From NCBI GenBank assembly GCA_026545225.1, contig CM048849.1:31196336-31260335 (forward strand): a stretch of DNA of 64,000 nucleotides. The letters are read 5' to 3'. A model generated the notes under the pieces. That model did not search any database. It saw only the letters and a program-made list of their open reading frames with translations, and was not told the DNA's origin. A program made the position numbers and the translations under genes. Below are positions 53,481 to 64,000 of this stretch, piece by piece (position 1 is the stretch's first letter; the number at the start of each line of letters is the position of its first letter). The stretch is from Cornus controversa (taxonomy: Eukaryota > Streptophyta > Magnoliopsida > Cornales > Cornaceae).

Positions 53481-54292
53481 CATACACAGTCTCACAACTT
53501 CGTTAAGGGAAAAAATAAATCATGCTTTCCCATTTTGCCAGTCATATTATTTTTGGCCTCAGTATAGGAGAATCATAAATCAAAGTATTGTTTCATCCTT
53601 CCTTATCTCTTTTAAGATCAAATTATTTTAAGGCTTAATATATTTACTCAACTCAACAAATCTTTTTCTCAACAAAATAAATAGCAATCCGTACTTAAAT
53701 TATAAATTGTGGAACAGAAATTTGTATACTTAAAGGTTTATGAGGAATGGTAGCTCTCATAACATTACATAAACTATAGCTACAATGGAAGAATACAAAG
53801 AGGACAATAAAGATTCCAGATCTATCTATTTTCTTCCAATTGGTTGTTTTAGCCCTGTCGTTATACAATAAGGCAAGTTTAAATTTTTCATACACTAGGT
53901 TTGTCAGGCCTCGATTTTTGAGTCTCGAGAACCGAGGTGTAAACTCTGAGAGATCACTCACAATATAATCATCATTATCCATATAATCCTAATTTTTTAT
54001 TATTTTCAAGAAAATTAAACATCTCCAATTTAAATAAATTAGATCCTGAATATCCATCTCATATATATATATGTCAAATGTACAACTAGGAGAAACTACT
54101 CAACATAAAACGTCTACATTTAATCCAAATGTAAACATCTTTCCAATATCCCTAACTGACTCCATGTCATTAGCAATACCTGCAAAACCTAGAAGGGTGT
54201 GAACTCAAAAGCTCAACAAGGTATGTCAAACCATACAATCACTGCTGTAGCAGGTTGATTCTCATATATTCTCAAAAATATACACATTTAAG

Positions 54293-54861
54293 TGTAATAA
54301 CCATTGTGGACGAGTGTGAGTGGGCGGGTGCGAAGACAGACACTGGGCTGAGCTACCACACTGACAAGGTACAGGGTGCTCAACCCTCATCGCTTGGGTG
54401 TAGAAAAGGGGATGTGCTTATATGTAGTACGTTCTTTTCAAATGGTATGAGGCCTTTTGTGGTAAAATCCAAGAACAAAACCATGCAGGCTCAGGCCCAA
54501 AGCGGACAATATCATACCATGTATTAGAGCGGGGTATTACAGTTGGTATCAGAGCCTGAACCCAGTTGGAAGTGTGTCGACGAGGACGTCAAGTCTCGTA
54601 AGGGGGTGGATTGTAGTAACCCTTGTGGATGGGTGTGAGTGGGTGGGTGCGAATACAGACACTGGGCTGAGCTACCACACTAACAGGGTACAGGGTGCTC
54701 AATCCCACATCGCTTGGGTGTGGAAAAGGGGATGTGCTTATATGTAGTATGTTCTCTTCAAATGGTATGAGGCCTTTTGGGGTAAAACCCAAGAGCAAAA
54801 CCGTGCAGGCAAAGGCCCAAAGCGAACAATATCATACCATGTGTTGGAGTGGGGTATTACA
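54293..54861 (+). mobile_element. complete TRIM retrotransposon, 569 bp
   Basis: Left LTR 54293-54541, primer-binding site TGGTATCAGAGC (54544-54555), a ~45-bp interior, a purine tract (about 54600-54610), right LTR 54612-54861. Both LTRs start TGTA and end TATTACA. Flanks are TTAAG and TTAAA, a 5-bp target duplication with one change. It has no coding capacity by nature and looks structurally whole. About 23 differences over 249 bp between the LTRs (~9%) suggest an age of several million years. It sits in the minus-strand Tekay-type LTR. Confidence 0.9.
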
Positions 54862-55368
54862 TTAAATATATCACAATATTTAAAATCATGCTCTTTGTAA
54901 CATACATGAACCAACAATGCATATGGCAATTCTAGCATATATGAACATATGAATCTACTACCTATGATTTTTTAAAATCATTTTTAACATGCTCAAAAGT
55001 AATAAAAATCCAACATAAATATGTATATAGAACATATATGTCAAAGCATTTACATAAACAATGTAAATCATATACAACATCGCCTACTCAATAAGTGACA
55101 AGGCTCAAATGTAATGTAGATGCATTTAAATAGTATAACATGCTTAATAGATAAACACATAAGTGTAAAGATATGAATCTCTCTCGGATCTTATTCGATA
55201 CCCCACATGATTTGGACCACTCTAACAAATCATGCAACCTAGGACGCATCCTGTAACTAGTGCATGATTTGGACGTACTCCGACAGTGTCATACTTCATA
55301 GTCAATGTTTTGATTTATCTTGTGGTGATTGGAAATACTCTGACAGTCACCAAATGTGGATATAGTGC

Positions 55369-55699
55369 CACTTACGTAACATGGATGGACACCGTTCCGA
55401 CAGCGCATGAAAATTAACATGGGTGGACATCATTTCGACAGTCCATATATGATTGATTTTCCTCGTTACCCATAATTTCCACTTACATAGCATGATGACA
55501 CTATTCCAATAACCCATAAAGGTTAACATGGGTGGACATCATTTCGATAGTCCATGCACGATATATCTTTCCCGTTACTCACAAATTTCACTTACGTAGC
55601 ATGGATGGACACCGTTTCGATAGCCCATGAAGGTTAACATTGGTGGATATCATTTCGATAGTCCATGTATGATAGATCTTCCGTGTTACTCTTAATTTC
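55369..55699. repeat. 110-bp minisatellite, three copies
   Basis: Three direct copies start with CACTTACRTARCATG at about 55369, 55479 and 55589, each containing GGTGGACATCATTTCGAYAG and a Y-rich tail. Partial older copies precede (about 55190-55340). Located in the minus-strand Tekay-type LTR. Confidence 0.85.
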
Positions 55700-56519
55700 T
55701 TCCAATATGATTTAGAACATATAATGTCTAGCATTTCATTTCATTCTTAATCTAATGCACAGGCTAGATTTAAAAGTAAATAGCATGTATTCCCCTCTAC
55801 ATCAACCCACATATAATCACGTATATGTCATTTTCCTCCCATGTATGCAATGTGGATGTATACATACTTAGCATATTATTTTCGTGCATTAACTCATGCT
55901 CATTAATACTAAAAAGAAGTATTTAGCATGCTTCTCATCACATTCCAACACGTATAGTACATACATGTTCAAAACTCATATAATGTTTCACATATGCCAA
56001 CAATCTCAACTTAGCTCATTTTTATTATGTTATAACCAATGCATACATTCAATATATATAAAGCTAGCATGCATTTCATAACCACATTTCTACATATAAA
56101 CACGTACATGTCACATCCTACTTATAATCACATATACACATATATTAGCATAGATATAGTCATGCTATCACTCAATGCATGCATTCACTACAAGCAACTA
56201 TCAGGCATTCAAATCACAATATATAATCACATATATATTCTACCATATATGTAATAAGAACATATATAACACTTAGCATATCATAATTATGATTTTCAAA
56301 TGCTCATTAATGCTATACTTATATTTAGTATGTATCTCCACTACCGCATCCATATATAATCAAATATATATTCCAAACCACGCATAAAAACCACAGATGC
56401 ATAGAAAACAACATTTGGCTAAACATATATTATATAACATACTTTTAACATAGTTTCAATGTGTACATATGCATATAACAATGCAAGCAAACATTAAATC
56501 ATCATGCTTTCATTTTCAA

Positions 56520-56558
<39 letters not shown>

Positions 56559-56970
56559 GATACATACCATATATGATTAAATTAAGAAACTTATGTAAAT
56601 TAATCGACGTAATTAAAATATATACGTAGGAGATAGAGGCAAGAATCAACCTTGCCTTAGGTCTAGCTTGTAATGAGTCCGCGTCCGTAAAACGGCCTAT
56701 ATCCGATACTGGTCCACTCCCATGTCATAGCCCACACGAACAATCCACTAACCCATTTTCCATCTGACCCATTTTCCATGTCTAAGTGATTGGTCTTTAA
56801 TTCCCATTTGGACCCTGAAATTTAATGAGTCCAACTTATAACCCGATTTAATTTAATTGAAAACCAAACCCAATCATAATCCAAGGGGCAGCCCATTTCA
56901 AGCAATACAATAGCCTAAAGTCAATTGCTACCCAATGTCACCTTAGCCCAATTCCAAAATCAATTGCACC

Positions 56971-57903
56971 CAGTGACGGACCCAGAAATTTATGTAAGGG
57001 GGGATGACCTTTAAAAATAAGATAAAAAAATTCAAATCATCATAATAAACAAAAAAATAGTAACTTTCATTGATAATTTCATTGAGTATATTTATGTCAC
57101 TGTAATATGCAAAATAACAATAGTCATCAAAAATTCTATTAAGTACATTTACAATTGTCCTCGATGACTTTTCATATTTTGAAAACGTTGTATGATAGTT
57201 TCATTATCTACACCCTTAGATATGTCTTTTTCAATATATACTAACAAACTATCACTCATTCATTCATCTCCTATCTTATTGCGTAATCGATTCTTTACAA
57301 TATTCATAGCAGAAAATGCCCTCTCTATGGTAGCGGTTGTAACTGGTAAGATCAATGCTAATGTCACAAGCAAATAAACTAGGGAGTGCACCTTGTTTAT
57401 TTCAGTTTCAACCATTTTCTTTGCAAGATCACCAATCCTTTTTAATCCTTCAAACTCGCTACTAGAGCACACATCCACAATATAATTCTCAAGTTGATCA
57501 CCAAGTTTCACAAGAGCTACTAGAGAAAATTCTTTTGGATAAAATTGAGCAAGTCAGATTAGTTTTTGCTTCTCAAAAGCAGAAATTGAATTATCCGGAG
57601 ACAAGCATGCCACACAAAGAAACAACTCAGTATTCGCTTCAGTAAAACGACTATTTAGCTATGGTGATTTCAGATCTTTAACAATATTTTAGAAGATTGT
57701 CAACAGGTGGAATGATTTCAATTTAGTGTAACCAGTGAGGATTTTGAATTGACTTTGTGACATTAACAGAGTAGATTTATTCTTGGCATACATCTTTAAA
57801 CAATATTTTCTTGTATATTTAGGTTAGCTAATTAAAATTATTGTTTCCAAGATTTTGGGGGTCAAATACACAATATTCAGTATTTATTTGAATATAGATT
57901 TTT

Positions 57904-57939
<36 letters not shown>

Positions 57940-58418
57940 AAAATTAATTTAACTATAAGATGTGAGCAAAAGTAGATCTATGGTGTTTTCATCAAAATTC
58001 CTCATAAATAGATATACAAAATCAAATATAGAAACCCTAAGTTAGATCTACAAAATCAAATGCTACAAATCCTAGAGTCTAGAGACACAACTTGAAGAAA
58101 ATTTTCAATTGGTGCTATTGCCTGTTGAATCTAGCAATATTAGAAGATTTTATTGAAGCTGACTCTTTGTTGTAGTCTGTAGATGTGGACCATGTGGTCC
58201 TGCCGACGATTGTGTGGCGATGCGAGAGAAAGTGGGAAAGAGAGAGTTTGTGCTGCGAGAGACAGAGTTTAGAAATTAAAGGGTCATAGTGTTGTTTTAA
58301 TTTTTTTTTAGGGGGGGCCATTTATGATTTTTTATTAAAATATACATATATACTACTAAAGAAAAGAAAGTCAGTGGGGGCATCCGCCCCCACTCGCCCC
58401 TACATAAGTTCGTGCCTG
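56971..58418 (-). mobile_element. hAT transposon I, 1448-bp deletion derivative
   Basis: The 3' terminal repeat CAGTGACGGACCCAG is at 56971 and the 5' terminal repeat (inverse of ...GTGCCTG, i.e. CAGGCACGAACTTATG) ends at 58418. It keeps the transposase C-terminus (57660-57190) joined to the 5' leader (57661-58418). Relative to copy II about 2.74 kb is missing, with a 2-bp CT overlap at the join. This Ds-like structure is typical of abortive gap repair. The C-terminal exon is in the normal orientation here, reading through ACAATATT at 57298-57305. Left flank is ATTGCACC. Confidence 0.88.
57190..57660 (-). pseudogene. transposase C-terminus of hAT I
   Basis: Contains the hAT dimerisation block LVYLLVTLALILPVTTATIE followed by RAFSAMNIVKNRLRNKIGDE; the catalytic Glu is in TIERAFS. 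A stop follows GDE where copies II and III have Trp. N-terminal two-thirds missing. Confidence 0.85.
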
Positions 58419-58761
58419 AATATTGTAAAGAATCGATTATGCAACAAGATGGGAGATGAATGGATGAGTGATAGTTTGTTAGTGTATATTGAAAAAGACA
58501 TATCTAAGGGTGTAGATAATGAAGCTATCATACAACGTTTTCAAAATAGGAAAAGTCGACGAGGACAATTGTAAATGTACTTAATAGAATTTTTGATGAG
58601 TATTATTATTTTGTGTATTATAGTGACATAAATGTACTCAATGAAATTATTAATGAAAGTTACTATTTTTTTTGTTTATTACGATGATTTGAATTTTTTT
58701 GTCTTATTTTTAAAGGCCGCCCCCCCTTACATAAATTTCTGGGTCCGTCATTGACAATATT
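58419..58761 (+). other. inverted terminal segment of hAT II with 8-bp inverted target copies
   Basis: AATATTGT (58419-58426) stands next to the outer end of copy I, and its inverse ACAATATT (58754-58761) next to the 3' terminal repeat of copy II. Between them, on the plus strand, lie the transposase C-terminus (NIVKNRLCNKMGDEW..., stop at about 58574), the 3' UTR and the 3' TIR. In the uninverted copy I the single site ACAATATT is at 57298. The geometry is that of reversed-ends transposition into the element's own coding region. Confidence 0.85.
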
Positions 58762-60966
58762 CATAGCAGAAAATGCCCTCTCTACGGTAGCGATTGCAAC
58801 TGGTAAGATCAATGTTAATGTCACAAGCAAATAAACTAGGGAGTGCACCTTGTTTATTTCAGTTTCAACCATTTTCTTTGCAAGATCACCAATCCCTTTT
58901 AATCCTTCAAACTCACTACTAGAGCACACATCCACAATATAATTCTCAAGTTGATCACCAAGTTTCACAAGAGCTACTGGAGAAAATTCTTTTGGATAAA
59001 ATTGAGCAAGTCGGATTAGTTTTTGCTTCTCAAAAGTAGAAAATGAATTATCCGTAGACAAGCATGCCACACAAAGCAACAACTCAGTATTCGTTTTAGT
59101 AAAACGACTATTTAGCTCTTGAAGTTGAATATCTATGACGACATAAAATAACTCAATACGATAATGATGCAAGTTTGAATTTTCATGAGCTTTGCGTCGT
59201 GGTCTTCCTAGAGGTAGAAATGTATCATCCATATTAGGAACAAGAGTGTCATGCTTGACACAAAAAGAAGAAACTTCATAAAGTAAAGAATCTCATTCAT
59301 TATCCCTCATCATTTGCAATCGGTCCTTGCATATTTTGACTAAGGGCATTGCAATAACAATATCTTGATCTTTCCTTTGAAGCGCCTTTGACAACTCTTT
59401 TGTATTTCCTAGAAGAGCTCTCATCAAATGCAAACATAATATGAAATTAAAAGATTGTATGAACTCCAACAACAAATTTACTTCAATTTTCTGTTCAGAT
59501 GACCCAACCTTTGCAATTGTCTCAAGTACACCAACCATGGCTGGAAACATGGTAATAACACTAATCAAAGTTTCATAATGTGAACTCCAATGTGTATCAC
59601 TGGATCGCTTAAGAGAAGTGTTCTGATTTAGTCCTTGTTCACTTAAAAGCTCACCACTATTAAGTGCCTCGGTAACTGTGGAAGTTTGTTTCTCTCGAAG
59701 CAAATCACAACATTTGCATGAACCACCAACTACGTTCACAAGATTAGCGACAAAAGTGAAGAGAGAAACAATATCAACATTCTTCTTTGCCACTGCGACG
59801 AGAGCCAATTGAAGTTGATGGGCAAAACAATGAATGTAAAAAGCACATTCATTCTCCCTCAAGATAAGAGTTTTGAGACCATTGAATTGTCCTCGCATAT
59901 TACTAGCCCCATCATAACCTTGCTTGCGCAAGCTAGAAATGCTCAACCCATGTCTAGAAAATAAGTCATCAATTGCCGCCTTAAGTGAGATGGCAGTGGT
60001 ATCAGTAACATGCACAAAGCCGATAAAATGTTCAACTACTTGTCCATTCTTGTCCACGTAGCGTAACACACAAGCCATTTGTTCCTTTGTTGAAATGTCC
60101 CGAGACTCATCAATTAGAATAGAAAAAAAAGCATCGCCAATATCTTTGATGATAACATTGATAGTCTCCATTGCAAAGGCATTAACAATGTCCTTTTGAA
60201 TCTTAGGTGCCGTTAATTTGAGATTTTCCAGAGCATTCTTCAATGTAACTGCGTTAATACCCTTATTATGATCTGCAAGAAACTGCAATGTCTCAAGAAA
60301 ATTCCCTTGGTTGCTTGAATCCTCAGTTTCATCATCACCACAAATTGCAAACCCTTGTCGTAAAAGGTGTCGAATGCAATCAATTGATGCAGTCAATCGA
60401 GTTCGATATTCAATTCGCGCCTTGTGTGATTGGTTGGAGAAAATTATTTGAATATGTTACTTTTGTTTCTTTAAAGGTTGATACATACTCCAAGATTGGT
60501 TGTGGGAACTTCTTAGACCTCCAATATGTTTATCAAATCTTTCTTTCTTCTTCCAATCTGAAAATCTTTCACTCACAAAGGAATCACCACCCGATTGTTC
60601 TCCAATATTTGGTTTTAAGAGATAGAAACATAGACAATATGCCGCATCCTTAACTATGCTATATTCTAACCAAATATACTCATCAAACCATGCCGGGCAA
60701 AAACGTCGTGATGATTGCCCAAATTTCCTACAAGGAAACAAATGCTTTCAAGGTTGGTAAGCACCCCTTTGTAGATATTCTCTACGAATTTGATCTCGGA
60801 CATTAGGATTATAATCCAAAATCTGAGTCCGTAGTCTAGGATCTACAGGAAGATCCTTGAGGTTGATCTCTACATCACTTCGCTTTGATGAGTGATCATC
60901 TCTTCCTAAAGAGGGTGGTGACTCTATTTTTCTTTTGAAAAAATTCTCCAATACTGATTCAAACAT
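58754..60966 (-). pseudogene. hAT transposase of copy II (ZMYM1/TTF-type), interrupted
   Basis: One continuous frame from MFESVLENFFKRK (60966), interrupted by three in-frame stops (after GAYQP near 60748, after KKQK near 60457, and at 59293 where copy III has Trp in NEWDS). Order: basic N-terminus; TTF-type zinc-finger region RRFCPAWFDEYIWLEYS (about 60710); RNase-H-like core with the first Asp in FSILIDESRD (60109-60111) and the second in GYDGASNM (about 59913); DTHWSSHYETL (about 59590); the Glu in TVERAFS (about 58780); then loss of the last ~50 residues by the inversion. All three catalytic acidic residues are still visible. It would have cut and pasted elements of this family in the nucleus; now inactive. 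Confidence 0.9.
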
Positions 60967-61622
60967 ATAGTTTATATAATTAGCTAATCACATTTTAGGG
61001 AATGAAATATTGAATAACAACTTATATCTACCACTCAAGAAAAAAAAATTAAATTAACATATTCAATATTAGTGTTTTGTGCACCAGTGGATGTGATATT
61101 TTAGATAATATTTAGCATAATTGTGCACCTGTGCATTGTGTGTAAGGTAAAAACAATGTCAGCATGTGCATTGTGCATAAACAAAAACAATGTGTGTCTG
61201 TGCATTGTGCGTAAGGCAAAAAATAAAAAAAAAATGTAAATCGCATATTTAGAAATTGCTTCAATGTTATTAGAAAAAATTCAAAGAAATAAATCTAGAA
61301 GAATAAATAATAAATATGTTGAGTTAGTTTACCCTTAGTCATTTGATTTCTACCAAGAGATTTTTCAGCAACACTTCCAATTGATCTAAATCGCTATGAA
61401 TAACTAAAAATTGTAGTCTACAGACCTGTTATAAATGAAAGAATCAACAAATTGGTCAGAAACAACCTGATTTTTTTTTGTTTTGGTATTGTTTTGGTAC
61501 AGTTTACTTTTTTGCTAAGGATTTGTTTAATCTATTTGACGAGCTTTAAAAGATGACTCATCAGTACAATGGTACAGTTTGAGGGTGGGAATTGTGTAAA
61601 TCTTGTTTTATAATTATTTTCT

Positions 61623-61661
<39 letters not shown>

Positions 61662-61858
61662 CGAAAAGGAAAGCAATTGTATATATGAGGATAATATTAC
61701 TAAAACTTGTACACTAACATATCTGGTCTTTGGGATGCACATGTTACATGTGGTACACCTTTATGACCCTCTTATAGATCCATTGATTACCGGATGCTTT
61801 CATTGTTTTTCACTTTTATTTGACCTTAATTGAAGGCTGTCTACCTAGTTTAGTCCCT
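60967..61858 (-). other. 5' leader/upstream part of hAT II
   Basis: Non-coding. Contains degenerate repeats of GTGCATTGTGCRTAA (61120-61215) and a pure TA run (61625-61659). Together with 61859-62626 it forms the 1.66-kb 5' leader of the element. Copy I lacks the 60967-61858 part through its internal deletion. Confidence 0.6.
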
Positions 61859-62108
61859 ATGGTGATTTCAGATCTTTAACAATATTTTAGAAGACTGGCC
61901 AGCAGGTGGAATGATTTCAATTTAGTATAACCAGTGAGGATTTTGAATTGACTTTATGACATTAACAGAGTGGATTTATTTTTGGCATACATCTTTAAAT
62001 AATATTTTCTTGTATATTTAGGTTAGCTAATTAAGATTATTGTTTCCAAGATTTTGGGGGTCAAATGCACAATATTCAGTATTTATTCGAATATAGATTT
62101 TTCTTTCT

Positions 62109-62143
<35 letters not shown>

Positions 62144-62626
62144 GAAAATTAATTTAACTATAAGATGTGAGCAAAAGCAGATCTATGGTGTTTTCATCAA
62201 AATTCCTCACAAATAGATATACAAAATCAAATGATAGAAACCCTAAGTTAGATCTACAAAATCAAATGATACAAATTCTAGAGTCTAGAGACACACCTTG
62301 AAGAAAATTTTCAATTAGTGCTATTGCCTATTGGATCTAGCAATATTAGAAGATTTTATTGAAGCTGACTCATTGTTGTAGTCTGTAGATGTGGACCATG
62401 TGGTCCTGCCGACGACTGTGTGGCGATGCGAGAGAAAGTGGGAAAGAGAGAGTTTGTGCTGCGAGAGACAGAGTTTAGAAATTGAAGGGGCCATAGTGTT
62501 GTTTTAATTTTTTTTTAGGGGGGGCCATCTATGATTTTTTATTAAAATATACATACATACTAATAAAAAAAAAAAAAGTCAGTGGGGGCATCCGCCCCCA
62601 CTCGCCCCTACATAAGTCCGTGCCTG

Positions 62627-62968
62627 AATATTGTAAAGAATCGATTGTGCAACAAGATGGGAGATGAATGGATGAGTGATAGTTTGTTAGTATATATTGA
62701 AAAAGACATATCTAAGGGTATAGATAATGAAGCTATCATACAACGTTTCAAAATATGAAAAGTCGTCGAGGACAATTCTAAATGTACTCAAGAGAATTTT
62801 TGATTAGTACTGTTATTTTGTATATTACAGTGACATAAATGTACTCAATGAAATTATCAATGAAAGTTACTGTTTTTTTGTTTATTACGATGATTTGAAT
62901 TTTTTTTTTCTTATTTTTAAAGGCCGCTCCCTCTTACATAAATTTTTGGATCCGTCACTGACAATATT
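62627..62968 (+). other. inverted terminal segment of hAT III
   Basis: AATATTGT (62627-62634) next to the end of copy II, C-terminal exon on the plus strand, 3' terminal repeat ending GATCCGTCACTG at 62960, then ACAATATT (62961-62968). Same breakpoints as in copy II, so the rearrangement predates the duplication or was carried by it. Confidence 0.88.
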
Positions 62969-64000
62969 CATAGCAGAAATTTCCCTCTCTACGGTAGCGG
63001 TTGTAACTGGTAAGATCAATGCTAATGTTACAAGCAAATAGACTAGGGAGTGCACTTTGTTTATTTTAGTTTCAACCATTTTCTTTGCAAGATCACCAAT
63101 CCCTTTTAATCCTTCAAACTCGCTACTAGAGCACACATCCACAATATAATTCTCAAGTTGATCACCAAGTTTCACAAGAGCTACTGGAAAAAATTCTTTT
63201 GGATAAAATTGAGCAAGTCGGATTAGTTTTTGCTTCTCAAAAGCAGAAAATGAATTATCTGGAGACAAGTATGCCACACAAAGCAACAACTCAGTATTCG
63301 CTTTAGTAAAACGACTATTTAGCTCTTGAAGTTGAATATCTATGATGGCATAAAACAACTCAATACGATAATGATGCAAGTTTGAATTTTCATGAGCTTT
63401 GCGTCGTGGTCTTCCTAGAGGTAGAAATGTATCATCCATTTTAGGAACAAGAATGTCATGCTTGACACAAAAAGAAGAAACTTCATAAAGTAAAGAATCC
63501 CATTCATTATCCCTCATCATTTGCAATCGGTCCTTGCATATTTTGACTAAGGACATTGCAATCACAATATCTTGATCTTTCCTTTGAAGCGCCTTTGACA
63601 ACTCATTTGTAATTCCTAGAAGAGCTCTCATCAAATGCAAACAGAATATGAAATTAAAAGACTGTATGAACTCCAACAGCAGATTTACTTCAAATTTCTG
63701 TTCAGATGACCCATCCTTTGCAATTGTCTCAAGTACACCAACCATGGTTGGAAACATGGTAATCACACTAATCAAAGTTTCATAATGTGAACTCTAACGT
63801 GTATCACTGGATCGCTTAAGAGAAGTGTTCTGATTTAGTCATTGTCTACTTGAAAGCTCACTACTATTAAGTGCCTCAGTAACTGTGGAAGTTTGTTTCT
63901 CTCGAAGCAAATCACAACCTTTGCATGAACCACCAACTACGTTCACAAGATTAGCGACAAAAGTGAAGAGAGAAACAAGATCAACAATCTTCTTTGCCAC
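62961..64000 (-). pseudogene. hAT transposase of copy III, partial
   Basis: C-terminal half. It keeps NEWDSLLYEVSSF (open where copy II has a stop) and LVYLLVTLALILPVTTATVE, but has changed AFSAMN to EISAMN and carries a stop in place of Trp in DTHWSSHYE (about 63795). Upstream it remains alignable with copy II to the window edge. Confidence 0.88.

Follow-up and report, generated by a model that had tools for sequence, protein, structure and literature searches.

How did a DNA transposon come to carry one of its own arms inverted inside its own transposase gene? The question is raised by an array of hAT elements in the Cornus controversa genome, within a 64,000-nucleotide stretch (C5:31196336-31260335 of a 771.7-Mb assembly; hereafter 'the window', with positions counted from its first base). 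A first-pass annotation of this sequence interpreted the array as the footprint of reversed-ends transposition (RET), in which a transposase pairs the ends of two neighbouring elements and inserts them into a nearby site. We examined the junctions, relatives and flanks of the array, and considered which routes could have produced it.

An array of three adjoining hAT copies

Three adjoining copies of the element are present at the locus, all on the plus strand. Left and right refer here to the ends of the window; because the transposase is encoded on the minus strand, the 5' end of the first-pass annotation is the window-right end. Copy I (56971-58418) is in normal order with both termini present, running from the left terminus CAGTGACGG to the right terminus GTGCCTG (58412-58418), and has an internal deletion of ~2.77 kb with its joint near 57660. 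Copy II (58419-62626; 4208 bp) has an inverted left arm. Copy III occupies 62627-64000 in the window and extends to ~65535 beyond it, within an additional 20 kb of flank (L031 and L032, beginning at 62965 in window terms). It has the same inverted arm (62627-62960) and the same junctions – the inversion first noticed in copy II is real, but not peculiar to that copy.

The element has the features of the hAT superfamily: an 8-bp target duplication, short terminal inverted repeats and a borderline C-terminal dimerisation domain. By inspection, the terminal inverted repeats of copies I and II are CAGTGACGG on the left and CGTGCCTG on the right, and several relatives terminate in CGTCACTG. A copy II transposase frame with a DUF4371 domain lies at 59293-60396 on the minus strand (E 5.1e-59). 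Dimer_Tnp_hAT was identified in the copy I frame at 57260-57511 (minus strand; E 2.2e-4), with a score of 21.4 bits that is borderline against the cut-off of 21.4. The corresponding C-terminal frames of copies II and III are both interrupted at the target by the rearrangement and have no hAT dimerisation match at E 0.01. In copy II this frame (58663-59232, minus strand) is cut at the target and continues into the inverted arm – consistent with the earlier placement of the target inside the transposase gene.

We compared the array with 17 relatives, four of which lack a placed right end. Among the 13 with both ends placed, ten (counting L035) have 8-bp flanking duplications with seven or all eight bases in agreement; the exceptions are L034 (1/8), L036 (2/8, with a degraded right end) and L038 (5/8). 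L034 (C3:46764411-46768644) is the closest full-length relative, with normal order and both termini. Its 8-bp flanks, ACACGAAT and TTCTCCGT, do not match, so this copy may itself be rearranged.

Breakpoints of the inverted arm lie at transposon termini

Base-level comparison gave the order of copy II as GTGCCTG of copy I, AATATTGT, the inverted left arm, CCGTCATTG, ACAATATT and the remaining element. The arm (58419-58753, minus strand) starts with the inverted target AATATTGT (58419-58426) and finishes at the left terminus CCGTCATTG. In agreement with the terminal inversion of ~335 bp that had been proposed for copy II, it is the reverse complement of 56971-57304, with 22 mismatches and 2 gap positions, one of which is due only to the copy I piece being one base over-long. 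Complementarity is 94% over an inverted arm of 256 nt and 93% over one of 87 nt. AATATTGT directly abuts GTGCCTG of copy I, leaving zero spacer between copies I and II, and a second copy of the target ACAATATT (58754-58761, plus strand) comes immediately after the left terminus. In copy I the target occurs once, uninterrupted, at 57297-57304 (plus strand) rather than at 57298-57305 as originally reported. The arm length is 334-335 bp, with the target 327 bp from the left end.

As the first-pass annotation had described, the octamers at the two breakpoints are inverse complements and the ends are cut exactly at the termini. Both breakpoints thus coincide with transposon termini, and the 8-bp target is present at both in opposite orientations – the arrangement that defines inversion-type alternative transposition. 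Together with the complementary arms and the 8-bp duplications of relatives, the coincidence of the breakpoints with termini and with one 8-bp site makes the inversion more than a chance arrangement.

Both junctions recur in copy III, where GTGCCTG is joined to AATATTGT at 62626/62627 and CCGTCACTG to ACAATATT at 62960/62961. Because copy III carries the same junctions as copy II, we infer that one rearrangement event was followed by a tandem duplication giving rise to II and III. Separate events in the two copies would be unparsimonious, given their identical junctions and the 14 exclusive alignment columns that they have in common (see below). Inverted and tandem repeats are readily misassembled, which raises the question of whether an assembly error lies behind the inverted order. 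We consider this hardly credible: both junctions occur twice, in copies that have diverged by 4-6%, which argues against an assembly chimera; the extended sequence contains no N between 50000 and 82964; and the joints coincide with transposase-specific bases.

The inverted order is derived

The first-pass annotation had proposed searching the genome for uninverted copies and for the same junction elsewhere. Using the copy II arm plus junction as a query against the 771.7-Mb assembly, we scored 40 of 247 candidate places: the arm is in normal order in 28 (copy I included) and inverted in two (copies II and III), and ten have no second piece. Since the normal order prevails among the scored places, the inverted order is a derived state. 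The opposite polarity, with the inverted order as the ancestral structure, is ruled out by the 28 normal arms and by the confinement of the inversion to copies II and III among the 40 places scored. The copy III junction of the I/II type was matched over all 101 bases only at the two sites in the window (40 scored of 53 candidates).

With junctions that are exact, an order that is derived and relatives that have 8-bp duplications, there is good support for strand transfer of hAT ends into an 8-bp site that lies within the transposase gene of the element itself.

Four routes lead to the same order

In a symbolic comparison, four routes yielded exactly the observed order: RET of two neighbours, sister-chromatid transposition, nested reverse insertion followed by a flip, and a recombined autointegration circle. 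The absence of a spacer between the elements had originally been taken as unusual, but each of the four routes would leave zero spacer – RET because this reaction loses the inter-element segment, as reported in maize (PMC8225341). The first-pass interpretation therefore stands in part: the RET inversion signature is there, but a reaction between two neighbours is one of four routes with the same order. Because order alone fits four routes, the outer target duplications are needed to separate RET of two neighbours, which is the only route that predicts differing duplications, from the other three.

In the nested route, a reverse-orientation copy inserts into another at ACAATATT with an ordinary 8-bp duplication, and recombination between the inverted left arms then flips the interior. 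This produces the exact order and zero spacer in the symbolic comparison, and the arms of 334-335 bp are still 93% alike. However, an extra recombination step across these short arms is required, and the unflipped form was found in none of the 40 scored arm places. In its present form the array differs from a double-Ds-type structure, in which a copy sits reversed within a similar one with a direct 8-bp duplication; the order seen today is flipped, although a nested state may have preceded it. In maize double Ds and sesqui-Ds, an element is inserted in reverse orientation into a like element, and aberrant transposition of double Ds is reportedly the topic of a published study. Among nested forms double Ds comes closest, but it is unflipped, whereas the array described here would need an added inversion and is duplicated in tandem. 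We regard the nested route as unlikely, though a serious contender.

Suicidal autointegration offers a different explanation for the repeated unit. The excised element would attack itself within the transposase gene, producing an inversion circle (the element plus 8 bp) that would recombine into a resident copy, captured perhaps as a dimer or a rolling-circle product. The 4208-bp repeated unit corresponds to such a circle opened at its joint, and the tandem of units is explained directly. Sleeping Beauty and piggyBac give inversion circles with target duplications (PMC3952818). This route nevertheless requires circle capture by homologous recombination, and a limited literature search found no report of autointegration in hAT elements; we judge it improbable.

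Outer flanks of the array

We examined the flanks for the outer target duplications. The left flank (53902-56970, plus strand) is repeated sequence, part of an LTR-like repeat that is broken by the hAT insertion. A C1 relative has this repeat twice, ~9.6 kb apart, and two C1 copies continue without an insert where CAATTGCACC meets AAACTCATTC. Because the two C1 copies continue uninterrupted at the corresponding point, we presume that ATTGCACC (56963-56970, plus strand) is the left outer target duplication. On the other side, copy III stops inside the element at ~65535 (L031 ~position 2571), and its right end is missing. A search for an orphan right part of the subfamily (40 scored of 69 candidates) found no full-length match besides copies I and II, C3, C8 (at least 92%) and C1 (81%).

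The flanks and the right part have several further features. The sequence joined to the end of copy III, read by eye, resembles a minus-strand gypsy-like polyprotein. The first 147 bases of the copy II right part (61861-62007) match C7:6366678-6366824 at 91%, and the rest of the right part has no match in that locality among the matches listed. Two segment copies starting TGTAATAACC, ~90% alike, lie ~319-320 bp apart at 54293-54861, and a ~110-bp unit is present in three tandem copies at 55369-55699 in the LTR-like left flank.

Kinship of the three copies

Copies I, II and III could descend from one element or from two. In the body alignment – which leaves out L039, L042 and L045 to L049, under the coverage rule or as outside the set of 11 – 14 columns are common to II and III and found in none of 10 other rows. 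One exclusive II+III column falls in the region covered by copy I, and copy I has it too; there are no exclusive columns in the left arm. Copies I and II have 5 columns in common in the right part when compared with 3 rows; strict I+II columns against 12 comparators number 2, equal to another, unrelated pair. II+III received a bootstrap value of 100 in the body, and I+II one of 93 in the terminal 484 bp of the right part (an alignment from which L038, too short, was left out). In the left arm plus first body, the values were 56 for I, II and III against other copies and 64 for I+II. The likeness of I and II in the right part could itself come from unequal exchange or gene conversion.

The deletion in copy I bears on the same question. 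With a query across its joint (1-150), 40 of 96 candidates were scored, and copy I alone matched at full length. Other matches mostly cover 1-70 or 69-150; five weaker ones (78-86%) cross the joint, four to 91-97 and one to 92, and these are presumably chance extensions. Since the deletion joint is private among the scored places, copy I was probably once full length. Together, the shared columns and this private deletion give a weak hint of descent of all three copies from a single ancestral element, and dating and tree comparison carry a weak signal as to a one-element or two-element origin.

These results bear on RET of two neighbouring, independently inserted direct copies with loss of the intervening segment. 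Consistent with that route, the junction signature is as in Ac/fAc inversions (PMC8225341) and the order is reproduced symbolically. Distances within the family are star-like, with L034 (C3) at roughly the same distance from I, II and III as separates these three from one another, which is compatible with the participation of two family members. Against it are the weak signs of one-element descent and the requirement that another direct copy had inserted close by, without leaving a trace. We consider a two-neighbour origin quite unlikely.

A tentative model

We tentatively favour a history in which a single hAT element underwent sister-chromatid transposition into its own gene, with copy III arising afterwards by unequal exchange. 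The element would have been resident in the LTR-like repeat. During or after replication, transposase would have brought together a right end and a left end from two copies of the same element, the second copy most likely being that on the sister chromatid. The end pair would then have entered ACAATATT, a site within the transposase gene that lies 327 bp from the left end, in the orientation that gives an inversion. A single reaction of this type could yield an intact copy I, its right end followed by the inverted target and inverted left arm, then the left terminus, the target and the rest of copy II. Copy III may have come from unequal exchange between I and II; in a symbolic model, I-II becomes I-II-II through a single unequal exchange within the right part that both copies share. 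The deletion inside copy I and the loss of the copy III right end would have occurred afterwards.

We prefer the sister-chromatid event to the nested route because it would involve fewer steps. Sister-chromatid transposition and RET are both known for Ac/Ds (PMC3744419). The I-II and II-III distances are near equal (arm, 0.066 versus 0.063; first body, 0.038 versus 0.044), which suggests that the unequal exchange came soon after the rearrangement, if gene conversion has not blurred the distances. A rolling-circle origin of the third copy, of the kind proposed for bz1-m4-D6856 with its truncated third repeat (PMC4270019), is also possible.

Relation to known alternative transposition products

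The locus is a new natural case of a known kind of alternative transposition, with the element itself being the target. In a limited search of the literature, neither this locus nor a fossil of self-targeted inversion in a hAT element turned up. RET between Ac and fAc at maize p1/p2 produces terminus-to-target inversions with 8-bp repeats at the termini and loss of inter-element DNA (PMC8225341); the Cornus array likewise has a terminus-to-target inversion with 8-bp repeats exactly at the termini. The inversions described in that study are ~81 kb and involve two known elements, whereas here 335 bp is inverted and the target lies inside the element. The natural hAT duplications of maize B73 attributed to RET are, similarly, fossils of alternative transposition with 8-bp evidence; they are direct duplications of flanking DNA, however, without a self-targeted inversion (PMC3744419). 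Like our array, bz1-m4-D6856 and composite insertions contain tandem repeats with a truncated third copy, but the bz1-m4-D6856 repeats are gene DNA separated by Ds, whereas here the rearranged element itself is repeated (PMC4270019).

The array provides a single-base view, in an undisturbed genome, of how a hAT transposase can target the element's own gene while joining ends abnormally. The rearrangement inactivates the C-terminus of the transposase gene, and its product can then be tandemly copied. Finding the usual RET signature – termini plus an inverted 8-bp target – is not enough to establish that two elements donated the ends; this also requires the outer target duplications, a point to bear in mind in genome-wide surveys for RET fossils.

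Autointegration products of Sleeping Beauty and piggyBac also have both ends in the element itself, a target duplication and an inverted segment; these are circles from other superfamilies on laboratory plasmids, whereas the present case is a chromosomal hAT (PMC3952818). A similar explanation has been given for an Arabidopsis VANDAL5 inversion (PMC12312487). Were the autointegration reading true, the locus would document, in a natural chromosome, that hAT elements undergo suicidal autointegration, preserved as a tandem of self-disrupted elements with the last unit truncated.
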